Source: Balneolaceae bacterium
GTDB taxonomy: Bacteria > Bacteroidota > Rhodothermia > Balneolales > Balneolaceae
Length of the DNA: 64,000 nt
NCBI GenBank assembly: GCA_020832285.1
Contig: JAFIFB010000052.1
Location: forward strand, 1 to 64,000
Reading direction: 5' to 3'
Shown: in pieces, positions 3,343 through 60,538 of the stretch
How positions within the stretch are numbered: the stretch's first letter is position 1
Layout of the letters: each line of letters begins with the position of its first letter
Program-made: the position numbers and the translations under genes
Notes under the pieces: generated by a model
What the model was told of the DNA's origin: nothing
The model's database searches: none
The model's input: the letters and a program-made list of their open reading frames with translations, nothing else

Positions 3343-6300
3343 TCATAAATCCACCGACTTCTGGTGATCAAGCAGCCGAACTGCGGGTTCAACCGATACT
3401 CTTTTAACATCAAGACCTGTCATTTTCTGCTGTAAATTCACTCTGACCCGGTTCCACAAAATGAGCATCACCGGCATCAACACAAGGGTAATCAGCAGCC
3501 CAAACAAAAGGCCGTATGCGATCGACAGTGCCGGCGGACGGAGAAATGCAGAAACAAGGCCGCCTATAAAAATCATCGGAACCAGGCCTGCAACAGTACT
3601 CAGTGTGGTAAGAAGAATAGGCCGAAAGCGTGATTGTACAGCATCTTTCAGAGCATCATCAAACCGCATTCCAACAATCAGATTATCGTTGAATGCTGTA
3701 ATCAGCACCAGCATATTGTTGATCAGAATGCCAATCATGGCGATGATTCCCAAAACCGAAAAAATACTGAACGGCACACCATGAACGATATGGCCAAAAA
3801 CCGCACCAACCAATGCAAAAGGAAGCGACAAAAACACCAGAAGAGTTTGTGAAATAGACTGGAAGTTGATCACAATCAGTGAAAACATGATCAGCAGAAT
3901 TACCGGCCCTGCCAGCCGAATCATATTGACAACCCGTGATGCTTCGCGTTGCTGCCCTTCTATCTCGTAACTGACTCCGGGATGACGTTCCATAATACCG
4001 GGTAGTACATTTGCTTCAATATCTCCCAGAATGGCGGGTGCCGACAAGGAAGGGTGCGCTACATCGGCATCCACCAGAATTTGCCTTCGTCCGTTCTGCC
4101 TGTTAATCTGAAGCACATCTTCAGAAGGAATAAGAGTGGTAATTTCCCCAAGCGGATACGCTTCTCCGCCGGGAGTGCGAATTCTCATCTGTTCCAGGCT
4201 TCTGTAATCCGTGCGCTCCGATTCGCTGAAACGAATCCATACCCGCACTTCGTCACCTTCGCGCTGGAGAGACTGAGCCTGTAATCCGAAAAATCCCGCA
4301 CGCACCTGACCCATCACCTCCCGCAGATTTAGTCCAAGCTGTTCACCAGTTGTAGCCATCGAGACATGAATTTCCGGCAACCCCCGCTTGTCGTTATCTG
4401 CTACATCACTGAGATCTTCCCTTGCTTCGAGTTTCGACCGAAGTTCTTGCGCAGCACTTCTCAGCATTGCCAGGTTATCACCATTAAACGAAATAGAGAC
4501 CGGCATTCCTCCGAACCGGTCTTCTGCCGTGGCTCCCGTAAAACGGAGTAGCCCGGCCCCGGGAATTTCTCCTGCGGCTTCGCGAAACATTCTGTTCATT
4601 TGATATGACGGAATTCCCCGGTCACTCCCACCCATCAGAACAATCCTTAACTGGCCCTGATGACTCTGCGGGCCTATCACCCGTTCAACATGTTCAACCA
4701 CTGTTTTCCCATCCCTTCGTTCAGCTTTAAGTTTTACATTCACACTTTGAATAGCTTCTTCGATCTGAATCAGGCGCTGTTCGGTGGTATCGGAAGGAGT
4801 GCCAGGCTCCAGCTCAAGTGTAACCAACTGGATGTCATCATCAAGATTCGGGAAAAAAGTAACCGGCAGCCAACCGGACCGGAGAGAAAAAACCGCGGCA
4901 AACAGCAGAATCACAAATAAAATCATTGTGACACCTTTCCGCTGCTCTTTAATGATATCCCAAAACGGGATAAACCAACCGTCGCGTAAAAAGACCAGGC
5001 TTGAATTGAATCGTTTCTCCCAGCGGGTTTGCCAGTTCTTTTCTGTCAACACCTTGCTCCGGCTCAGCATGGCAGGAATAATGAAAAAAGAGACCACAAG
5101 GGCGGTAAGCAGTGACGAAATCACCACGAATGAGATCTCGGAAAAAAAAGTACCGGGACGCCCGGGAAGGAAGAAAAAGAGGCAAAACGCCGCTGCGGTG
5201 GTGAGCAGAGAGATAATCATTGGCATAGCCACTTCTTCTGCTCCGTCCATGGCGGCGCGAATGGGTTTTTTGCCAAATTCAACGTAATGCCGGTAGATAT
5301 TTTCTGCCACTACAACCCCCGTATCAACCAGCATCCCGAGTACCAGAATAAATCCAAAGATGGAGATGACGTTGATTGAAAGGGAATATCCCAGTTGAGC
5401 AAGGATGAACGTACCCAAAAACGACATCGGGATAGTAAGGGCTACCCAAAATGCAATGCGCTTGTCAAGAAAAAGGGTCAGGATTACCAGTACCAGGATC
5501 AGCCCCAGCACACCATTTTCCCACAGTGAAGCCACCCTCTCTTCAATAAATGCCGAAAAGTCTTCAATTATTAGCAGCTCAACGCCACTATGTGTTTCGT
5601 TAAATTCCCGGGTGTACTCTTTTACATATTCTGCAGCCCTGAGAAGATCTTCATTGCTGGTGGTGAGAATTCGAATCACAACAGCCTGCTCGCCATTTAC
5701 AACCCTTCGCACGGGCTGATCTTCAAACCGGTCTTTCACTTCTGCAATCTCCTTCAACAAAATTCGGCTCCCTTCCGGGTCAGCCCGAACAACAATATTC
5801 TGAAGGTCAGCTGCCGTAACGCGCTGATTGCGGGCCCTGATCTGCCACTTTGCCCCTTCCGTTTTCAGCTCTCCGCCGCTAATGTCGATGTTTGAATTCT
5901 GAACTGCATCCGCAACTTCGGCAAAAGTCATATCCCATCGTTCCAGATCTGACTCCCGGACACTAATTTCAATCTCCTCATCCGGCAGGCCTTGAATAAA
6001 TATTTTTGATAATCCCCCGTCAAACATCCAATCATCCCGAACGGTTTTGGCGTAGTCTTTCAGCTCCTGCAGCGGAACCTCACCTTTCACGGCAACTGTC
6101 ATCACCGGGCTCAGCATCTCCTGTTTATAAATGATAGGTGATTCCATCCCTTCAGGGAAGTTGGTCACCCGGTTAACAGCATTTTCAACATCAGAGAGTG
6201 CTTCGTTTATGTCTGTGCCTTCAAACAACTCAACAGTGATCCGCCCGTTGTTTTCATGAGATACGGATGTGAACCGGTCAATTCCCGTAATTCCCCGCAA

Positions 6301-51461: not shown

Positions 51462-51872
51462 TCAATAAAGGAAATGCCTTCCCCTGGATTCATTTTTGAT
51501 AAATCCAGTGCCTTTTAAATTAAAAATCGATTTAGCTACTTCTATTAAATACTGGTCTCTGATTTCTGAATCACTATCCTTCAAATTATTGTGGAAAAAT
51601 TGGAATGAATCCAGTGTATTAGCGCGGTGTTTGTTTACTGTATGCAAATGTTTATGGATTGTGAATTGCTTAAAACAAAAGCGCATTCCAAACAATAATA
51701 ATCCAAGTAATATCAACCTTTTCAAATAAAAGGGTATAAGAGCTTGAGTATATGTTATACTATCAATACCCATTGCTTTAATAGCTTCTATATCATCTTG
51801 TACAGAGGCTGTATCAGGAATGAAAAAGTTCAGGTATAAAAAACTTTTTGCAGAATAGATGCAATTTTTCAT
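51462..51872 (-). CDS. Small membrane protein coupled to the DUF4065 antitoxin
   Basis: This 136-residue protein has one or two hydrophobic segments (about 43-66, ALIPFYLKRLILLGLLLFGMRFCF). A C-terminal helical region follows: FTIHKHLHTVNKHRANTLDSFQFF continuing to EVAKSIFNLKGTGFIK. That end matches a pattern I know from larger membrane-linked proteins next to defence genes (HL..N.HRA.AL.TF...... A..IF....TGY). It appears to be a minimal or 5'-trimmed version. Its ATG overlaps the antitoxin stop by 4 bp, so it is made with it. It could be a second toxin or an effector; no function is established. Confidence 0.5.
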   Translation of the reverse strand: MKNCIYSAKSFLYLNFFIPDTASVQDDIEAIKAMGIDSITYTQALIPFYLKRLILLGLLLFGMRFCFKQFTIHKHLHTVNKHRANTLDSFQFFHNNLKDSDSEIRDQYLIEVAKSIFNLKGTGFIKNESRGRHFLY

Positions 51873-52855
51873 CTTTTCGGATACTTCAATATAAAAGCGT
51901 AATTATAATCAATAAGATTTTGCTCATCCTTGTTTTCTAACCAGGCAGCTTCTTCGTGTGAGATATTAATTAAATCATCTGTTTTCATTGATCCCAACGA
52001 TTCTTTCACCATTAAAAGAGTCTTCCTCTCTTCAGCCGTCAACACATTTAATACATCGCTATTGGAACTTGAAATAAATCTTTCTCCTTCTCTTTCCGGA
52101 AACTTAACCAGCTCTATACTAAAAGCCCCTTTTTCCGCTCCAAACTCAAAAAGCGAACCGTATCTATGAGGAACCGGCCCCATTGGAATTGCTTGATAGG
52201 ATGTTCCACTTATGGACTGCCCATATTGTTTAAAATGGCAGAAATCTGAATAAAACAATAGTTTGCAGAGCTTAACTTTGAAAAAGTTAGAGTTGAGAGC
52301 CATCAATGCAATCATAGCATTTAACTTTTCAATAGAAGGTGCTTTATAGCCTGTAAACTCATTCGGTTCCTGATGCCTGAACAACCAACTAAATAGCTTT
52401 TCATTATTTGAATACGCAGCCTTCGCACACTTTATATACTTCTCTTTCTGCTTTACAGTTAAACTATCGCAATCATTTACCAGATCAATAAAAAGACTTG
52501 GCTTTGATGCTATGGAAATCAATTTTGCATTAGCTAACTGTGGCACATCTCCATTCTCATAATTTCTGAACGTATTTGGTCCAAAACCAAGAATTTCAGC
52601 CATCTTAGTTTGATTTACCCTATACTTTTCCCGGATATTTTTTATTTCTTCAGGAAAAGGAATGTTGTGCTTTTTTCTATATGCACTATGCAACAGATGC
52701 ATATTCAATTCATCAATATCACGGGTTGTAAATTCTTTGCCCGTATCAACACATTTATAGTTGTTGTATGATATGGTGAACTTTTCACCACGGAATTCCA
52801 ATTCTTCATTATTAATCTGGCGTATCACTTCGCCACCTGTGTATGGACTTTTCAT
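51869..52855 (-). CDS. Antitoxin: MqsA-like N-terminus, HTH and DUF4065/Panacea domain
   Basis: The 328-residue protein has three parts. Residues 1-60 resemble the MqsA/YgiT zinc-finger domain, but the cysteines are replaced (MKSPYTGGEV instead of MKCPxCG). Residues about 60-115 form an Xre-type HTH (IREKYRVNQTKMAEILGFGPNTFRNYENGDVPQ). Residues about 175-300 are the DUF4065/SocA/Panacea domain (LNAMIALMALNSNFFKVKLCKLLFYSDFCHFKQYGQSISGTSYQAIPMGPVPHRYGSLFE). It should neutralise the MqsR-like toxin 9 bp upstream and repress the operon. Without its cysteines, the N-terminal domain cannot bind zinc in the usual way. Confidence 0.85.
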   Translation of the reverse strand: MKSPYTGGEVIRQINNEELEFRGEKFTISYNNYKCVDTGKEFTTRDIDELNMHLLHSAYRKKHNIPFPEEIKNIREKYRVNQTKMAEILGFGPNTFRNYENGDVPQLANAKLISIASKPSLFIDLVNDCDSLTVKQKEKYIKCAKAAYSNNEKLFSWLFRHQEPNEFTGYKAPSIEKLNAMIALMALNSNFFKVKLCKLLFYSDFCHFKQYGQSISGTSYQAIPMGPVPHRYGSLFEFGAEKGAFSIELVKFPEREGERFISSSNSDVLNVLTAEERKTLLMVKESLGSMKTDDLINISHEEAAWLENKDEQNLIDYNYAFILKYPKR

Positions 52856-52864
52856 GATTTCCTC

Positions 52865-53218
52865 CTATTTAAATGGAAAATTCATTGGATGTTCTGCGAT
52901 ATGGAATGAAATACAAATCACAGAGCTGTTTGATTTCCCCAGTGTTATTTTGATATAGATCTCTTGATTTTTAACAAGCTTACCGAAAACATACATTTCG
53001 GAATCACCCCCAAAAAACTCTTCCGGCTTTGGCCCTTCAGAGTAATCTTTAACGGAAAGATTTTTGATGATATCATCCCGTTCAAACGGTTTTAGTTCAA
53101 GTGTAGCTAATGTTTGTACATTTTTTGGCCGGTCATCCTCATAAATTATATCGTAGATGTTGGCTTTTACCTTCAATCGTTCTAAAAACGACGCTACTTC
53201 TTCTTTTGTTGTGATCAT
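52865..53218 (-). CDS. MqsR-family toxin
   Basis: This 117-residue protein has an RelE/MqsR-like fold: KPFERDDIIKNLSVKDYSEGPKPEEFFGGDSEMYVFGKLVKNQEIYIKITLGKSNSSVICISFHIAEHP. It aligns by eye with MqsR (ADELGLDF...LSESDFYKS...TIWQDVYRPRLVTGQVYLKITVIHDVLIVSFK). MqsR is an mRNA endonuclease. It is the first gene of the operon, with the antitoxin second, the MqsRA order. The start is ATG 53218 after an A+T-rich upstream region. Confidence 0.75.
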   Translation of the reverse strand: MITTKEEVASFLERLKVKANIYDIIYEDDRPKNVQTLATLELKPFERDDIIKNLSVKDYSEGPKPEEFFGGDSEMYVFGKLVKNQEIYIKITLGKSNSSVICISFHIAEHPMNFPFK

Positions 53219-53307: not shown

Positions 53308-55017
53308 TCAACTCCCCTCCAAAACCTCCCCAACCAACCCCTTCACCAACCGCTCATTCACCTGCTGCCGCTGCTCCAATTGGGCTTTGAACCGGTCGCA
53401 GATGGCAAAGAGCTCTTCGATGCGCTGGACGATGCGGTGTTGCTCTTCGAGTGGGGGAAGGGGAAATAACAGGTTACTTAATTTTGTAGCATTTACATTT
53501 GGTTGCCCAGTTCCTGATGTACTTTCGTATAGCTGGTTCCAATACAAATTGGTATTCAAATATTTGTAGATGTATTCTGAGGTATTGGTAAATGTTGGTA
53601 TAAACCTAATGAGATAAGAAGCAAATACTGCTAAATAATTTACTTCATAAATTAAAAATGACTTACCAACTGTACCACCGGTTCGAGCAATAATTAAATC
53701 ACCACTTTGTAACTCATATTTGGAAATTTCATCTTCTTTGATTGAACATCCAGGTGTATTATCCCAATCAACAGATCCATCTTGGATATCAGTTATTCTC
53801 AAAAATTTCGGTTCTGAAATATCAAAGTCAGCACTCTCTGTATATCCGTAATGAACATCATTAGCTGTATTTCCTAACCTTGTCCAAGTCCAACTCTCCG
53901 GCACCTCAAACGGAATTTCTCTTTCATCAACAGGTGGCAGATCTTTAGGCTTTCGAATCTCACCCTCCTCAAAAAGCCGTTGTTTCTCCGCCTCAATCTT
54001 TTTAAGGAGCTCGAAAGCAGATTCGTCGTTCGGGTCCTGGAATACGAGCCTGCCACGTACGGCCTCATTCAGGATGTTCTTTTTGAGGTTGTCGATTGCC
54101 TCCGGGGTGTGGTAGAGAGTCTCGAAATTGGAGGTGATGAAGTTCCAGGCGGTTTTGGAGGCTTCGGCATCCGGGGCTTGCTGTACCTCGGTATTGACCG
54201 CCAACTGCAATTTCTCATCCAGATTGGTTTGCCGATCCATCTTATCTTCCAGTTCATCTACTTCTGCGAACAGGGATTCAATTTTTTGAACAATGCGGTG
54301 TTGTTCATTTGACGGTGGAAGAGGAAAGGGACGATGCTCAAAATAACCTTTAGGAACCCTTTGATGTCCAGCTGTACCAGTCATTTCTTCAACTCCTTGA
54401 TTAACAAAATCAGGAGTTTTTAGAAAAGCATATACATATTCAGGAATTAATCCATCAATAACTGATCTGAAAATATAAAGTTCAGTTGTTCCTGCACCAA
54501 TGCCATTGGCAAGGTTTCTAAAAATTGCAGCTTTCCCATTTTGGAAACAGGGTGTAATTTTTGCTAAACCGACATCATTTTCAGCGAAATGAGTATATCC
54601 GGATTTTATTTCCTTCCATTTTCTTGTTTCTGAATCATGCATTTCCATAAATCCTTCAGAAATCAAACTCATAGAAATGAATGAAGTATCCAAATCATCT
54701 TTGGCGTCATTACGTGGATTTATCACCCCAGCTTCATTTAAATTTGTCCAAACCCAATTATTTGGAATTTCGAATGGATAATCACTTTCTGAAACCTGTT
54801 TAACTTTTTTGGGTTTACGAATTTCATCTTCCTCATAAAGTCGCTGTTTCTCAACTTTAATCTTCTTCAACAACTCCGAAGCCGGTTCATCATTCGGATC
54901 TTGGGGAACCAGTTTACCGCGTACAGCAAGACCAAGGATGAGGGAGCGGAGTTCGGTGAGTCCTTCGGCTGTGTCTATAACAACGTTAAATTCTTGGAGA
55001 AGGTCGGTTAGGTTCAT
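53308..55017 (-). CDS. hsdS: Type I restriction-modification specificity subunit
   Basis: HsdS sets the DNA target of the methylase and nuclease. The 569-residue protein is two tandem halves. Each half has an N-terminal linker (LVPQDPNDEPASELLKKIKVEKQRLYEE at the first, LVFQDPNDESAFELLKKIEAEKQRLFEE at the second), a target recognition domain (about 85-240 and 360-510) and a coiled-coil spacer (LPPSNEQHRIVQKIESLFAEVDELEDKM, LPPLEEQHRIVQRIEELFAICDRFKAQL). The start ATG overlaps the DUF559 stop (ATGA), so the two are coupled. It is the last gene of the R-M unit. Confidence 0.94.
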   Translation of the reverse strand: MNLTDLLQEFNVVIDTAEGLTELRSLILGLAVRGKLVPQDPNDEPASELLKKIKVEKQRLYEEDEIRKPKKVKQVSESDYPFEIPNNWVWTNLNEAGVINPRNDAKDDLDTSFISMSLISEGFMEMHDSETRKWKEIKSGYTHFAENDVGLAKITPCFQNGKAAIFRNLANGIGAGTTELYIFRSVIDGLIPEYVYAFLKTPDFVNQGVEEMTGTAGHQRVPKGYFEHRPFPLPPSNEQHRIVQKIESLFAEVDELEDKMDRQTNLDEKLQLAVNTEVQQAPDAEASKTAWNFITSNFETLYHTPEAIDNLKKNILNEAVRGRLVFQDPNDESAFELLKKIEAEKQRLFEEGEIRKPKDLPPVDEREIPFEVPESWTWTRLGNTANDVHYGYTESADFDISEPKFLRITDIQDGSVDWDNTPGCSIKEDEISKYELQSGDLIIARTGGTVGKSFLIYEVNYLAVFASYLIRFIPTFTNTSEYIYKYLNTNLYWNQLYESTSGTGQPNVNATKLSNLLFPLPPLEEQHRIVQRIEELFAICDRFKAQLEQRQQVNERLVKGLVGEVLEGS

Positions 55018-55619
55018 GCTCTGTCTCCTTTCTTTTCCACCTCTCCCCGGCCCTCTCCTCGAGGAGAGGGAGTGGACTTTGTTGCTTTAGTAGATGGTTG
55101 AGTAGAATCTGAAGATTGACTGCGAAAGCCGCTCTCTTCATGGAGTTGGGTTTGGGGAGAGGTAGATTTGAGGGTGATTACAGTTTTCTTCAATTTCTTT
55201 AATACTCCATCTATATCATTCATAATTTCTTCATTGGTGAATCTGATCACGGTAACTCCATACCGTTTGAACTCTTTGGTTCTTTCTTTATCGTAATATT
55301 TACTGTCTGCCTCGTTATGATATTCTCCGTCAGCTTCGATTACCAGCCGTAGTTCGTGGCAATAAAAATCTACAATGAATTCAAGAAGTGGATGTTGTCG
55401 TCTAAATTTTAGATTCAAAAACCGGCGGGCACGTAAATGTTGCCAAAGCACTTTTTCTGCATCAGTCATTTCTCGGCGAAGCTGCCGGGCATACTTGAAC
55501 TGATGTGGTTCGGCACCTGCGTGAAGGGGAATTTTTGGTGGTTTCTTGCCATTTTCGGCCTCTCCCCCGGCCCCTCTCCCGCCAGAGAGGGGAGTGCTAT
55601 TTTTAGAATTATCTGCCAT
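55014..55619 (-). CDS. DUF559 endonuclease-like protein with repeat-encoded tails
   Basis: This 201-residue protein has a compact DUF559 core at about 45-147 (REMTDAEKVLWQHLRARRF, FRRQHPLLEFIVDFYCHELRLVIEADGEYH, DKERTKEFKRYGVTVIRFTNEEI), a Vsr-like PD-(D/E)xK nuclease fold with Asp84 and Glu95/Asp97 as candidate catalytic residues. The N-terminal and C-terminal tails are low-complexity (TPLSGGRGAGGEAE, STPSPRGEGRGEVE) because they are translated from palindromic DNA repeats at 55559-55596 and 55037-55074. It sits between hsdM and hsdS and may be a passenger. Its stop overlaps the hsdS start by 4 bp. Confidence 0.85.
   Translation of the reverse strand: MADNSKNSTPLSGGRGAGGEAENGKKPPKIPLHAGAEPHQFKYARQLRREMTDAEKVLWQHLRARRFLNLKFRRQHPLLEFIVDFYCHELRLVIEADGEYHNEADSKYYDKERTKEFKRYGVTVIRFTNEEIMNDIDGVLKKLKKTVITLKSTSPQTQLHEESGFRSQSSDSTQPSTKATKSTPSPRGEGRGEVEKKGDRA
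55037..55074 (+). repeat. Palindromic repeat A (forward), at the 3' end of the DUF559 gene
   Basis: A CACCTCTCCCCGG head is followed by the perfect palindrome CCCTCTCCTCGAGGAGAGGG (55051-55070). It belongs to the same family as copies B, C and D, and it codes for the C-terminal tail of the DUF559 protein on the minus strand. Confidence 0.85.
55131..55163 (-). repeat. Degenerate repeat D (reverse), partner of A
   Basis: GGGTTTGGGGAGAGGT (55148-55163) is the reverse of the repeat head. The stem before it (CTCTCTTCATGGAGTT) is an imperfect copy of the palindrome. It is oriented opposite to A and lies 56 bp from it, so A and D form a facing pair. Confidence 0.65.
55559..55596 (+). repeat. Palindromic repeat B (forward), at the 5' end of the DUF559 gene
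   Basis: The CCTCTCCCCCGG head is followed by stem CCCCTCTC (55571-55578), loop CCGCCA and stem GAGAGGGG (55585-55592). It codes for the N-terminal tail of the DUF559 protein. Confidence 0.8.
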
Positions 55620-55671
55620 AAAAATGAATCATTCAATTAACTCAAAAAGAAGTATGCACAAGAGTACTTCA

Positions 55672-55705
55672 GCCCTCTCCTTGAGGAGAGGGTTTGGGAG
55701 AGGTG
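55672..55705 (-). repeat. Palindromic repeat C (reverse), partner of B
   Basis: CCCTCTCCTTGAGGAGAGGG (55673-55692) is a near-perfect palindrome followed by TTTGGGAGAGGTG. It is oriented opposite to B and lies 75 bp from it, just past the hsdM stop, forming the second facing pair. Confidence 0.85.
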
Positions 55706-55709
55706 AAAT

Positions 55710-57140
55710 TCAGGTCAATGTCTCCTTCAGTTCCCCAAGTAACCTCCGACTCAATTCCCGAATCTCATCATTCAACCTGTTCCGTTTCTCAAGAAGCTTT
55801 TCCACATCATATGTTTTATTATCTGCCCCATTCGGGTTCTTTATGTCCAAATTATAGTTTCGTTTCTCGATATCCTCTGTAGTGACTTTCCACGCCTTAT
55901 CAGTTTCCTTTCGGTCGTTCCACCATTCCTTCTCCATATCAAATTCTTCAATGCGGATCGGTTTGGTCTTGGAGTAGCTTTTATAGCCTTCGGGATAGCT
56001 GTGTTCAAAATACCACACCTCATCGGTAGAGTCCCCTTTCTCAAAAAAGAGCAGATTGGTGTTGATGCTGGTATAGGGCGCAAACACGCCTTTCGGCAGG
56101 CGCACGATGGTATGCAGGTTATTCTCCTTCAGCAGCCGCTCTTTGATGCGGGTTTTTACACCTTCCCCAAACAGAAATCCGTCGGGAAGTACCAGGGCAC
56201 ACCGACCACCTTCTTTCAGTAGGCGCATGATGAGCACCAAAAAGAGATCAGCTGTTTCCCTTGTTTGAAACTGCGCCGGAAAGTTCTTTTCGATGCCGTC
56301 TTCTTCCTGTCCGCCAAATGGAGGGTTGGTTAACACCACATCAACTCGGTCTTTGGCCTTGTATTCGTTGTACGGCTTGTTGAGGGTATTATCGCGCCGG
56401 ACCTTAGGCACATCAATACCGTGCAAAATCAGGTTGGTGGTGCAGAGCATATGCGGCATCGGCTTTTTCTCCACACCTTGTATGTTTTCCTGGAAGGCCT
56501 TCAAGTCATCAATGGACGACGACTGCTCTTTCATATGCTCGATGGTATCAACCAGGAATCCACCCGTTCCGCAGGCCGGATCAAATACGGTTTCCCCGAT
56601 TCTCGGGTCTACCATCTGAGTCATGAATTTGGTAACTGCACGCGGCGTGTAGTACTCCCCGGCATTTCCGGCGCTTTGCAGATCCTTCAGAATCTTCTCA
56701 TAGATATCATTGAACTGATGGCGGTCATCCTTCTTATTGAAGTTGATCTCATTCAGCTTGTTCACCACCTGCCGGAGCAGCGTCCCAGATTTCATGTAGT
56801 TGTAAGAATCCTCGAAGATCGACCTTACCACAAACGCCAGCCTGGGGCTCTTTTCGTCCAGCTCCATCTCCTTCATCTCCTTGAACAGCCCGTCGATGAA
56901 CTCCAGCAATGCATCCCCGGTGATTCCCTCTTCATCATGCGCCCAGTTTCTATACCGATATTTTTCCGGGATGGGAGACTCGAAGTTATCAGTCATGAGT
57001 TCCTGCTCAGTTTCGTAATCATCAAAAACCTTGAGGAACAGCATCCACCCAAGCTGCGAGATTCGCTGCGCATCGCCGTCAACCCCGGCATCCTTGCGCA
57101 TAATGTCTTGAATGGATTTAATGGTGTTGGATATGGACAT
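55710..57140 (-). CDS. hsdM: Type I restriction-modification DNA methyltransferase
   Basis: HsdM methylates adenine at the N6 position within the site chosen by HsdS. The 476-residue protein has the N-terminal HsdM_N helical domain, SAM-binding motif I FDPACGTGGFLVDT (about 187-195), and catalytic motif IV TNPPFGG (272-275) followed by QEEDGIEKNFP. The C-terminal helical tail (LLEKRNRLNDEIRELSRRLLGELK) would contact HsdS. A protease-like gene lies 33 bp upstream and the DUF559 gene 90 bp downstream. Confidence 0.96.
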   Translation of the reverse strand: MSISNTIKSIQDIMRKDAGVDGDAQRISQLGWMLFLKVFDDYETEQELMTDNFESPIPEKYRYRNWAHDEEGITGDALLEFIDGLFKEMKEMELDEKSPRLAFVVRSIFEDSYNYMKSGTLLRQVVNKLNEINFNKKDDRHQFNDIYEKILKDLQSAGNAGEYYTPRAVTKFMTQMVDPRIGETVFDPACGTGGFLVDTIEHMKEQSSSIDDLKAFQENIQGVEKKPMPHMLCTTNLILHGIDVPKVRRDNTLNKPYNEYKAKDRVDVVLTNPPFGGQEEDGIEKNFPAQFQTRETADLFLVLIMRLLKEGGRCALVLPDGFLFGEGVKTRIKERLLKENNLHTIVRLPKGVFAPYTSINTNLLFFEKGDSTDEVWYFEHSYPEGYKSYSKTKPIRIEEFDMEKEWWNDRKETDKAWKVTTEDIEKRNYNLDIKNPNGADNKTYDVEKLLEKRNRLNDEIRELSRRLLGELKETLT

Positions 57141-57173: not shown

Positions 57174-58136
57174 TTAATCTTCTTCTTGTTTTTTGCTGGA
57201 AATGGAAAAATCTCTATTTGAACCGATAATGGCTAACGATTTCTTATGAAAAACCTCCAAACACATATTAACATTGTTCAAAAAACTGTGGATGTCATTT
57301 GAAAGTATATATTCTGGACTTGTGTCTTTGATGCAATCACCCAAAAGTTTAGTTGCTTCTTCTTTGTCAATAACAAAACTATGATCTTTATATTCGTAGA
57401 CTAATTTATGAGCTATCTCTGAAATATTTATCTTTTGATCCTTTTCACTTAATAGCCTGGTAGCATATTGCACAGCAGATTCAGAAACTCTTTCAAAGTA
57501 GCCAAGTATCCTCAAATCAAGTTTTTCTTTCATAAACTCTGAAAACATGTTGCTTGAATTGGGATATTTGGAAACAATCTTTGCTATACTTTCCAAAGAA
57601 CTACTTATCCCTAATGCTGGTAGCCCCCCAAATTGTGGATCTATTGGGCCAAGTTCACTCATTGGTCCCATATGAATTTCCTGACCACCTAATGCAATTA
57701 GTGTGGCAGCTGACTTTGCTTTTCTTGGAACAGCTACAACGAATTTTTTAGATAATTCTTTACAAGTTTTACTGATTAAGTATGCTGGCTCAATTCTTCC
57801 TCCGTGATTATGGATAATCATCAATATTGGTTTCTCATTATCTGTAGAAATCGCATTATAAATCCTATCAACCATACCTTCTGATATTCTGTTGTTTGGC
57901 TCATACAAGAAAAGAATAAGATACTCTGAACTGATTTCGTGTCTCTTAGTAATTTTAAGAATTTGCTTATAAAGTAATGGTCTAAGATCGTTAACCTTAT
58001 CCTCTGGAATATTGGCTATTAGATTTAAAAGATTCTCAAATTTCTCAAGATCAATATCATTTTCTTTTTTCTCATTAATACCCTCACTATCTTTCTTTTT
58101 GGCATCTTGTTCTGTCGTGCTTTTCTTTTTACTCAT
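57174..58136 (-). CDS. Serine dehydrogenase-type (SDH/ClpP-fold) protease within the R-M operon
   Basis: This 320-residue protein has the SDH_sah/ClpP-crotonase pattern: ILMIIHNHGGRIEPAYLISKTCKEL (oxyanion Gly112-Gly113), then VAVPRKAKSAATLIALGGQEIHMGPMSELGPIDPQFGG, with Ser142 as candidate nucleophile (KSAATL). The first 35 residues are highly charged. It lacks a membrane anchor and so should be cytosolic. Located 33 bp from hsdM and 32 bp from hsdR, it is clearly part of the operon. Relatives are annotated as serine dehydrogenase proteinases; the role in restriction is not established. Confidence 0.85.
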   Translation of the reverse strand: MSKKKSTTEQDAKKKDSEGINEKKENDIDLEKFENLLNLIANIPEDKVNDLRPLLYKQILKITKRHEISSEYLILFLYEPNNRISEGMVDRIYNAISTDNEKPILMIIHNHGGRIEPAYLISKTCKELSKKFVVAVPRKAKSAATLIALGGQEIHMGPMSELGPIDPQFGGLPALGISSSLESIAKIVSKYPNSSNMFSEFMKEKLDLRILGYFERVSESAVQYATRLLSEKDQKINISEIAHKLVYEYKDHSFVIDKEEATKLLGDCIKDTSPEYILSNDIHSFLNNVNMCLEVFHKKSLAIIGSNRDFSISSKKQEED

Positions 58137-58168: not shown

Positions 58169-60538
58169 TTAAGCTGATTTATATAATTCATTCTCAATTT
58201 CGTGGATGGCCTGAAAGTATAGATCTCGCCCGCCAAACTCTTGTATGATTTCCATCGGTGTACCTATATTGTTGAATGGATCTAATCTAAGAATATTCAC
58301 ATCCTCCAGATTCTCAAGCCCTTCATCTTCATACTTGTCCAACAGGGCTTGTAATACCTCCTTGGCAGTTCCGGTGTACTTGCCGAAGTAGTTCCTCTTC
58401 TTCACGTTATTGGCCCTTTCCTGACGGGTGAGTGGAGGCTGCTCGAAGGCTATGTGGCAGATGAGGTCAAAAGGATCAAGCTCTTTATCTACGTCTTTTT
58501 TCAGTTCGCTGAATACCACTCCGGCTTCTTCCAGTTCTTCTACAATGGCCTGTTTCTTTTCAGAACCTTTCCACTTGCGTAGAAAATCATCCAGTGAGTT
58601 GTACTTATCATTGATTTTCTTGCGGGAGTAATCCTTCAGAGATTCGGTAATTAGCTTTCCATCGTCACCATAGTACTGAACTCTTTGGTTGAGCAGTTTC
58701 ACCTCCACTTTATCAACATAAAAACGTCTCACATTATCCTCCTCAATCGGACCGCCATCATCCTCACCTTCCCAAAGAAAATCCTCACCCTCACTTTCAA
58801 CTGCTACCGATGGAATATCATCCGGGTGGAATTCATCTTCTGGAATGGGTGTATCATTCGGGCCAAAACTGGTAGCCTGTACCGGCTCACCATCAAAGTC
58901 GGGATCGGCAAAGTGGCGGGTCACATTTCGGAAATCCATAATGGTGAAATACATCTTTCCATAATCTTCACTGATTCGTGTGCCACGGCCGATGATCTGT
59001 TTGAATTCAGTCATCGACCCGATATTGGCATCCAGCACGATGAACTTGCAGGTTGGAATGTCAACCCCTGTGGTAAGCAACTTGGAGGTTGTCGCGATTA
59101 CCGGATACGGTTCCTCTTCATCCATAAAATTATCCAGTTCCCGTTTACCAATGATCTCATCACCAGTAATTCGCATCACATAACGGTTATCTCTGGCAAC
59201 TATATCCGCATTATAATTGATAAGGGCCTGTCGCATTCTTTCAGCGTGATCGATGTCTATACAGAAGATGATCGTTTTAGCATACCGGTCCGTTTCCTTC
59301 AAAAACTCTGTCACTTTACGCGCTACCAAATCTGTGCGTTTTTCAAGAATTAGATTCCGGTCGTAATCCTTCTGGTTGTACTCGCGGTCGGGAATAATAT
59401 TACCATACTTATCGGTAAAGCCATCCAAAGGTCTCCACCCTTCAGCATCTTTATCAAGGGTGAATCGCACTACTTTGTATGGTGCAAGAAACCCATCTTC
59501 AATTCCTTGTTTTAGGGAGTAGGTGTAGAGCGGCTCACCAAAGTAGTCTATATTGGAAACGGTGTTTGTCTCTTTAGGTGTGGCAGTCAGGCCTATGTGG
59601 GTGGCACTGTCGAAGTATTCCAAAACCCGGCGCCAGGCCGAATCTGCAGCAGCGCTTCCCCTGTGGCACTCATCGATGATGATCAGATCGAAGAAGTCAT
59701 GAGAGTACTCTTTGAATACATCCTCAAAATCTTCATTTCCTGTCACTGCCTGGTATAAAGCAAAATAGATTTGGTGGGCCTTGCTGACTTTTCCTCTTTG
59801 AATTTTGTGAACGATGTCTTTAAGTGATCCAAAGTATTTACGAATCGGATCATCCACCAGGATATTTCTATCAGCCAGGAAAAGGATTCGTTTGTTCTGG
59901 CCTGATTTCCAGATTCTCCAGATGATCTGAAAAGCCGTCAAGGTTTTTCCAGTCCCGGTTGCCATAACCAAGATTATTCGATCCATTCCTTTGGCAATGG
60001 CTTCAATGGTTCGGTTAACGGCAATTTCCTGGTAATATCGAAGAGTTCGGCTTCCCTGCTCAAAATGATAGGGCTGTTTTACCAGCTTCTCCTGTATTTT
60101 ATTGAACCCATTGGCCTCAGCATATCGGTTCCAGAGTTCTTCAGGCGAAGGGAAATCATTCAGCCCAATTTCTCTGATAATCTCACCATCAGTCTTAGTA
60201 CGGTCATGCTCAACAAATCCATCTCCGTTTGAGCTGTAGACAAAAGGTGTGTCGAGGATATCCCCATAATCAAGCGCTTGCTGAAGCCCGGCGCCTACGG
60301 AATGTGAATTATCTTTTGCCTCGATGATTGCCAGTGGTATACCTCTTTTGTAATAGAGGATGTAGTCAGCCTTCTTTCCTTTGTCTCTCTTTGCTAATGA
60401 CCCTCTTACACGAATCCGACCATCTGTAAAATACTTCTCTTCACGAATTTGTTTATGTAAATCCCATCCTGCGTCCAGCAATGCCGGTGTGATGTATTTC
60501 GACCGAATATCCGCCTCTGTGAGTCCCGATTTATTCAT
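58169..60538 (-). CDS. hsdR: Type I restriction enzyme subunit R
   Basis: HsdR is the ATP-driven translocase and nuclease. At 789 residues it is of the shorter EcoAI/EcoEI style. The N-terminal PD-(D/E)xK nuclease domain has ADYILYYKRGIPLAIIEAKD (Glu73-x-Lys75 region). Helicase motifs follow: Walker A VMATGTGKT (191-199), DECHRGS (289-295), THIGLTATP, TTGVDIPTC and QIIGRGTRISEDYGK. The C-terminal HsdM-contact region follows. It is the first gene of the operon. Confidence 0.96.
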   Translation of the reverse strand: MNKSGLTEADIRSKYITPALLDAGWDLHKQIREEKYFTDGRIRVRGSLAKRDKGKKADYILYYKRGIPLAIIEAKDNSHSVGAGLQQALDYGDILDTPFVYSSNGDGFVEHDRTKTDGEIIREIGLNDFPSPEELWNRYAEANGFNKIQEKLVKQPYHFEQGSRTLRYYQEIAVNRTIEAIAKGMDRIILVMATGTGKTLTAFQIIWRIWKSGQNKRILFLADRNILVDDPIRKYFGSLKDIVHKIQRGKVSKAHQIYFALYQAVTGNEDFEDVFKEYSHDFFDLIIIDECHRGSAAADSAWRRVLEYFDSATHIGLTATPKETNTVSNIDYFGEPLYTYSLKQGIEDGFLAPYKVVRFTLDKDAEGWRPLDGFTDKYGNIIPDREYNQKDYDRNLILEKRTDLVARKVTEFLKETDRYAKTIIFCIDIDHAERMRQALINYNADIVARDNRYVMRITGDEIIGKRELDNFMDEEEPYPVIATTSKLLTTGVDIPTCKFIVLDANIGSMTEFKQIIGRGTRISEDYGKMYFTIMDFRNVTRHFADPDFDGEPVQATSFGPNDTPIPEDEFHPDDIPSVAVESEGEDFLWEGEDDGGPIEEDNVRRFYVDKVEVKLLNQRVQYYGDDGKLITESLKDYSRKKINDKYNSLDDFLRKWKGSEKKQAIVEELEEAGVVFSELKKDVDKELDPFDLICHIAFEQPPLTRQERANNVKKRNYFGKYTGTAKEVLQALLDKYEDEGLENLEDVNILRLDPFNNIGTPMEIIQEFGGRDLYFQAIHEIENELYKSA

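Follow-up and report, generated by a model that had tools for sequence, protein, structure and literature searches.

A DUF559 nuclease gene bracketed by potential intrastrand-triplex repeats in a Balneolaceae genome suggests a mobile genetic system

The stretch of DNA analysed here, referred to as the window, comprises 64,000 nucleotides of contig JAFIFB010000052.1 of a Balneolaceae bacterium (GenBank GCA_020832285.1). It includes an hsd operon in which the interval between hsdM and hsdS holds a gene for a DUF559 nuclease, bracketed by four facing repeats, three of them intact and one decayed (Table 1); hsdR is located further upstream in the same region, at positions 58169–60538. From low to high coordinates, the repeats are arranged as A> D< DUF559 B> C<, with their heads directed outwards. 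Repeats B and A are translated as the tails of the DUF559 reading frame, whose stop codon overlaps the start of hsdS. The four bracketing repeats had been proposed in the first-pass annotation of this DNA; their positions and layout were confirmed, and copies A, B and C are intact, while D, at about 55127–55164, retains its head and spacer (GGGTTTGGGGAGAGGT) and has a decayed hairpin, scoring under the unit threshold. The palindrome is exact in A (55051–55070) and C (55673–55692) and is present with a different loop in B (55571–55592), giving three palindromic sites versus a mean of 0.14 in dinucleotide shuffles of the window. Scanning of the whole 64 kb for the pattern of a pyrimidine arm, a loop, a purine arm, a spacer and a third strand revealed perfect (8/8) triplex units only at A, B and C.

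A gene for a ClpP/SDH-like serine protease is located between hsdR and hsdM (57174–58136). Beside hsdS lies a gene with MqsA-antitoxin and SocA/Panacea domains (51869–52855), adjoined by a 117-aa ORF without a Pfam match (52865–53218), and the two could form a toxin–antitoxin pair. The possibility that the DUF559 protein is a subunit of the type I restriction system was rejected, since the hsdM–hsdS pairs of three other genomes (G293, G159 and G046) lack the gene and its contexts elsewhere are unrelated.

Table 1. Features of the DUF559 cassette and its surroundings (window coordinates), and the related elements next to E. coli ycjD.
Feature	Position	Strand	Basis
Whole cassette	55031..55705		675 bp missing from the hsdM–hsdS junction of G293 and G159 (blastn and alignment, L277, L278)
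DUF559 nuclease gene, 201 aa	55014..55619	-	ORF list; PF04480 E = 1e-37; AlphaFold core pLDDT above 90
PIT unit A: hairpin CCCTCTCC-TCGA-GGAGAGGG, spacer CCG, third strand GGGAGAGG on the minus strand	55040..55070	-	Perfect triplex unit, 8/8
PIT unit D, decayed, facing A; third strand and spacer intact, hairpin broken	55127..55164	+	Sequence and repeat pairs
PIT unit B, translated as the N-terminal low-complexity tail of DUF559	55560..55592	-	Perfect triplex unit, 8/8
PIT unit C, facing B: CCCTCTCC-TTGA-GGAGAGGG-TTT-GGGAGAGG	55673..55703	+	Perfect triplex unit, 8/8
Target copy at the hsdM end, AAGGAGACATTGACCTGAATTT on the coding strand	55706..55727	-	Matches the single copy in the G293 empty site
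Second, imperfect target copy at the hsdS start, AAGGAGACAGAGCATGAACCT	55010..55030	-	Both copies align to L277 2914–2935
hsdM, host operon, outside the cassette	55710..57140	-	PF02384
hsdS, host operon, outside the cassette	53308..55017	-	PF01420
BoxC/PIT unit in the ycjD–fabI gap, and degenerate facing copy overlapping the ycjD 3' end	L205 2204–2245, 2399–2422		3' side of ycjD

The repeats are known potential-intrastrand-triplex elements (PIT; BoxC/TM_ECO in E. coli). They had been taken for REP-type repeats composed of a head, CACCTCTCCC, and a palindrome. A family of head and palindrome is indeed present, but the head is more than an arbitrary tag: it mirrors the arm of the hairpin across a 3-base spacer, and head and palindrome make up one intrastrand-triplex unit in which a third strand takes the place of the supposed head. 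PIT motifs, known in E. coli, were described by Holder et al. 2015 (PMC4666352), who reported a stable triplex of the E. coli motif in vitro and no triplex signal in vivo, described the E. coli PIT sites as unstable regions, and did not find mobility functions near them.

The triplex rule extends well beyond the window. Fully homopyrimidine/homopurine arms were found in 165 of 181 palindromes flanking DUF559 genes. In a set of 223 palindromes from DUF559 loci, with those of Pseudomonas added, 187 have an 8/8 triad-compatible third strand, as compared to 0/223 with shuffled flanks, and the spacer is 3 nt long in 163. Within the triads, a G of the purine strand is answered by G (1204 versus 26) and an A by A or T (453 versus 5). 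More than 20 different arm sequences, including CCCTCTCC, CCCCTCTC, CCTTCTCC, CCCTCCCC and TCCCCCTT, follow this rule, and therefore it is the capacity to form the structure, rather than one particular sequence, that is conserved. Arm classes are clustered overall on the DUF559 tree (34 changes versus 55 in shuffled data), while no clustering was observed for the CTTCTC class; the coevolution is thus weak, and sequence-specific recognition is unsupported. A second repeat class, CCCCCTTT..AAAGGGGG, with a near-mirror head, also flanks DUF559 genes (loci L042, L047, L048, L053 and L144).

The association between DUF559 genes and PIT units was analysed across loci from the Bacteroidota, Pseudomonas and a cross-phylum set found by a peptide motif alone (an 8-row alignment), with sources in Bacteroidota, Acinetobacter, Pseudomonas, Methylococcales, Chloroflexi, a cyanobacterium, a planctomycete, spirochaetes, Omnitrophota, Latescibacterota, and one Methanophagales archaeon. 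Under the strict triplex-unit criterion, a PIT unit was present within 250 bp of DUF559 at 22/30 loci of Bacteroidota, 49/75 cross-phylum loci and 27/28 loci of Pseudomonas, while GIY-YIG nuclease genes of the same phylum gave 0/26 and positions 1 kb away from DUF559 genes gave 0–1 positives. With a simpler criterion, a GC-rich perfect palindrome within 250 bp, 77 of 105 DUF559 loci were positive, 51 of them on both sides. The corresponding controls yielded 0–3 positives among 105 loci with shuffled flanks and, at distances of 1 kb or more, 1–4 among 55–93 loci, none of them two-sided. A chance origin of the palindromes was rejected on the basis of the shuffles, the distal windows and the GIY-YIG control. 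DUF559 homologues lacking such repeats had been named as an observation against the cassette; such loci exist, no recognisable repeat being present at roughly 25–33% of those examined.

Copy number was compared with gene presence at the level of whole genomes, in counts that treat related genomes as independent, so that p-values overstate the case. Among 296 genomes of Bacteroidota, the palindrome occurs in 61 of the 126 with a strong DUF559 match versus 19 of the 170 without (odds ratio 7.5), and almost no occurrences were found in the same genomes when the pattern was read backwards. In 149 Pseudomonas genomes, two or more palindromes are present in all 28 DUF559-positive genomes versus 17 of 121 negative ones, with medians of 70 and 0, respectively, and a maximum of 427. 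The first-pass annotation had called for such a count and for a search of the complete genome, listing restriction of the repeat to this locus as an outcome against its reading. This is the outcome obtained for the window genome itself: in the 5.33-Mb assembly the exact palindrome was not detected outside the cassette locus, and the version with shorter arms occurs at just two further places. Its relatives carry up to hundreds of copies. PIT-rich genomes without a strong DUF559 match also exist (e.g., 32 copies in G086 and 160 in G358); they are expected after gene loss or with other factors acting. Of the Bacteroidota in this group, G125 (16 copies) and G001 (12 copies) are palindrome-rich like G086, and possibly reflect loss or another enzyme.

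Comparison of empty and filled hsdM–hsdS junctions, also proposed earlier, provided direct information on mobility. In G293 and G159, whose HsdM proteins are 92–93% identical to that of the window, hsdM overlaps hsdS directly and the 675 bp of the cassette (55031–55705) are missing. At the same junction G046 carries an element of about 95 bp that lacks a nuclease gene and contains two PIT units, one intact and the other decayed. Therefore, the empty, mini and full states are all represented at one site. Together with the controlled cross-phylum association and the link between repeat copy number and DUF559 presence, these states support the proposal of a small cassette. The cassette of the window is flanked by an imperfect target repeat of about 20 bases, which, judging from the alignment, may be a target-site duplication; no duplication was seen at the G046 mini-element, and a clean target duplication was not found.

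Pseudomonas genomes contain many copies of a PIT pair of about 183 bp, with about 83–91% identity. Across 79 genomes, one orthologous site has the pair in some and lacks it in others; an indel scan of four Pseudomonas genomes revealed chiefly nested or replaced repeats. The layout in the window and in relatives, the dispersed pair and its site polymorphism agree with the REPIN-like architecture of facing pairs suggested at first. In Acinetobacter, most compared DUF559 loci have the same upstream neighbour, and therefore the gene appears to be vertically inherited there, with REPIN-like units varying around it. RAYTs behave likewise, the gene being vertically inherited and the repeat units variable.

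Cassettes were also found in frame inside LeuRS, ValRS, MetH, MnmE, HrpA and HsdR. The LeuRS cassette adds about 155 extra residues, versus 6 in the Thermus enzyme at that place; MetH cassettes occur in both Bacteroidota and Chloroflexi, and HsdR cassettes in Bacteroidota and an archaeon. A Pfam scan of the exact ORFs of eight in-frame host proteins reported no intein domain.

The structural data agree with the initial assignment of the enclosed gene to the Vsr-like nucleases and not to the Y1 transposases. In the AlphaFold model of the window protein, the core has pLDDT above 90 for 82 residues, and the tails encoded by repeats B and A, described earlier as translated low-complexity tails, have low confidence. 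Foldseek matched 3hrl, a DUF559 protein of Neisseria (TM 0.92 of target); the closest structure outside DUF559 was the homing endonuclease I-Bth0305I (3r3p; TM 0.81 of target, E 1.5e-4), and AbaSI/PvuRts1I and Vsr were next. A profile hit in line with the EDxHD/Vsr-like fold had an E-value of 1.2e-6, and the conserved acidic and histidine residues fit a metal-dependent nuclease. In the literature, DUF559/YcjD was called Vsr-like in PMC1189080 and PMC12907096, and EDxHD once, in PMC9403480. The Caulobacter DUF559 protein VsrA is induced in a DNA-damage response and has been linked to breaks (PMC12907096). PADLOC defence models gave weak partial matches to DUF559, the best with 8e-7 over 47 residues; membership in a known anti-phage defence system was rejected, since no match covered most of the model length.

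E. coli MG1655 has a DUF559 gene, ycjD, with a BoxC/PIT unit and a degenerate facing copy on its 3' side (Table 1). Among 5426 complete E. coli genomes, ycjD was found in 3366 and BoxC-like sequences in 5395, with a median of 19 places. Since BoxC persists in E. coli without ycjD, the enzyme is unneeded for maintenance of the repeats, possibly being required for their spread only.

The presence/absence and copy-number patterns suggest that DUF559 and the long-known orphan PIT repeats form one previously unrecognised mobile genetic system. There is good support for the gene and the repeats being inherited and moving as a single unit; that DUF559 recognises and cleaves the PIT structure, and by which route transposition proceeds, we infer. 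On balance we favour, as somewhat more probable than not, the explanation that DUF559 is the enzyme partner of the PIT repeats and that both move as one cassette. In DNA made single-stranded by replication or transcription, the PIT unit would fold into a hairpin or an intrastrand triplex; the DUF559 protein, a Vsr/EDxHD-type nuclease, could recognise the folded structure at facing units and nick or break the DNA, and repair or replication would then copy the bracketed segment to a new site. Mini-elements consisting of two PIT units, REPIN-like or, in E. coli, BoxC pairs, would be non-autonomous derivatives. Since the repeats can often be read through without stops, insertion at operon junctions, like in-frame insertion in protein loops, would be tolerated. 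Weighing against this explanation are the DUF559 loci with no PIT unit, the PIT-rich genomes in which a strong DUF559 match is missing, the BoxC-like sequences of E. coli genomes that lack ycjD, the restriction of the repeat to the cassette in the window genome, the conserved location of the gene in Acinetobacter, the want of a clean target duplication and the negative in vivo result of Holder et al. A wider proposition, for and against which we see the balance as even, is that these cassettes represent an undescribed widespread class of mobile DNA, found in bacteria and probably also in archaea, with intrastrand-triplex ends and a triplex-recognising DUF559 protein of the Vsr/EDxHD fold, in which the PIT/BoxC repeats, those of E. 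coli included, are non-autonomous copies and YcjD is the E. coli K-12 member.

One could hypothesise instead that DUF559 is a maintenance enzyme, which removes or repairs stalled triplexes in PIT-rich genomes, the adjoining repeats regulating the gene or the gene travelling with repeat-rich DNA. The Vsr-like fold, the behaviour of Caulobacter VsrA and the conserved gene position in Acinetobacter are in line with such a role, but it leaves unexplained the bracketing by facing repeats and in-frame placement in unrelated proteins of many phyla, as well as the occurrence of a single site in empty, mini and full form; persistence of BoxC without ycjD also argues against it, and we regard it as unlikely. 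Less likely still is a free-standing homing endonuclease that cuts cassette-free sites and spreads by gene conversion, with PIT units as passengers or protective ends rather than the substrate. Its appeal lies in the structural proximity to I-Bth0305I and in the use of the same protein loops by distant phyla, those of HsdR by both Bacteroidota and an archaeon and those of MetH by both Bacteroidota and Chloroflexi; however, the contexts are highly varied, unlike one homing site, the copy number of repeats far from the gene tracks DUF559 presence, and gene homing does not explain repeat-only mini-elements.

The REPIN-like architecture, with facing pairs and dispersed copies, could also be taken to mean that RAYT (Y1) transposases move the PIT repeats in trans, like ordinary REPs, and that DUF559 is incidental. 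This is very improbable: PIT abundance in Pseudomonas is unrelated to the Y1 transposase (31/34 versus 103/115) and strongly related to DUF559, the repeat-rich DUF559-positive genome G422 has no Y1 match, and PIT repeats have no GTAG tag. We give just as little weight to a passive hotspot, in which PIT sites would be fragile DNA receiving many small genes, DUF559 among them; the instability reported for E. coli PIT sites (PMC4666352) would agree with it, but none of the 26 GIY-YIG control genes is PIT-flanked, the bracketing of DUF559 recurs in many phyla, and repeat copy number follows the presence of this gene.

DUF559 as the mobile partner of PIT repeats may be compared with several known systems. 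With PIT/BoxC/TM_ECO elements the repeats share the G/C-rich hairpin, the mirror third strand, the short spacer, the frequent arrangement in inverted pairs and the dispersal in many genomes; the presence of many copies, not found in the window genome with its one locus, holds for its relatives and for Pseudomonas. The difference is that these elements had previously been connected with neither an enzyme nor a mobility function, while here a DUF559 gene lies between the repeats. REPIN/RAYT systems likewise have facing palindromic repeats, non-autonomous pairs and a dedicated gene flanked by repeats, but their enzyme is a Y1 HUH transposase rather than a nuclease of the Vsr/EDxHD fold, and the position of the unpaired GTAG-type tag is taken here by the mirror third strand; membership in REP/RAYT was rejected, Y1 presence being unrelated to the repeats. 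EDxHD/Vsr-like homing endonucleases such as I-Bth0305I have the same catalytic fold and are also inserted in unrelated hosts, but DUF559 is bracketed by repeats, no intron or intein was found, and the observed likeness is one of fold. Palindromic repeats inside protein-coding genes are also known as Rickettsia palindromic elements and CGTC REPs; these differ in tag and stem, and no triplex third strand was described for them (PMC3733652). According to Di Nocera et al. 2013 (PMC3733652), the CGTC REPs have no transposase dedicated to them; membership in this family was rejected, since their stem and tag as described there differ from ours.

Both parts were already known, and the DUF559–PIT pairing is what is new; a search of open-licence papers revealed none linking the two. 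Catalogues of PIT/BoxC/TM repeats go back decades and cover hundreds of genomes, E. coli K-12 among them, with neither a source nor a mobiliser known, and the widespread DUF559 family has no known substrate; a link between them would explain both. If true, it would mean that a counterpart of REPIN/RAYT has evolved a second time, independently, and would indicate a nuclease that partners DNA triplexes in bacteria. The cassette also accounts for an anomaly that recurs in annotations, in which essential enzymes such as LeuRS and MetH contain nuclease domains with low-complexity tails.

Two further DUF559 places were noted in the window genome, C112:28784–29101 (L002) and C70:129073–129415 (L003, L004); one is in frame in a 1411-aa ORF with PIT-like sequence adjoining, and the other is frameshifted. 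In five Pedobacter genomes (L094, L099, L127, L130 and L140, about 3860–5116), DUF559 and hisF form an in-frame fusion, with DUF559 immediately upstream, that appears to be inherited.
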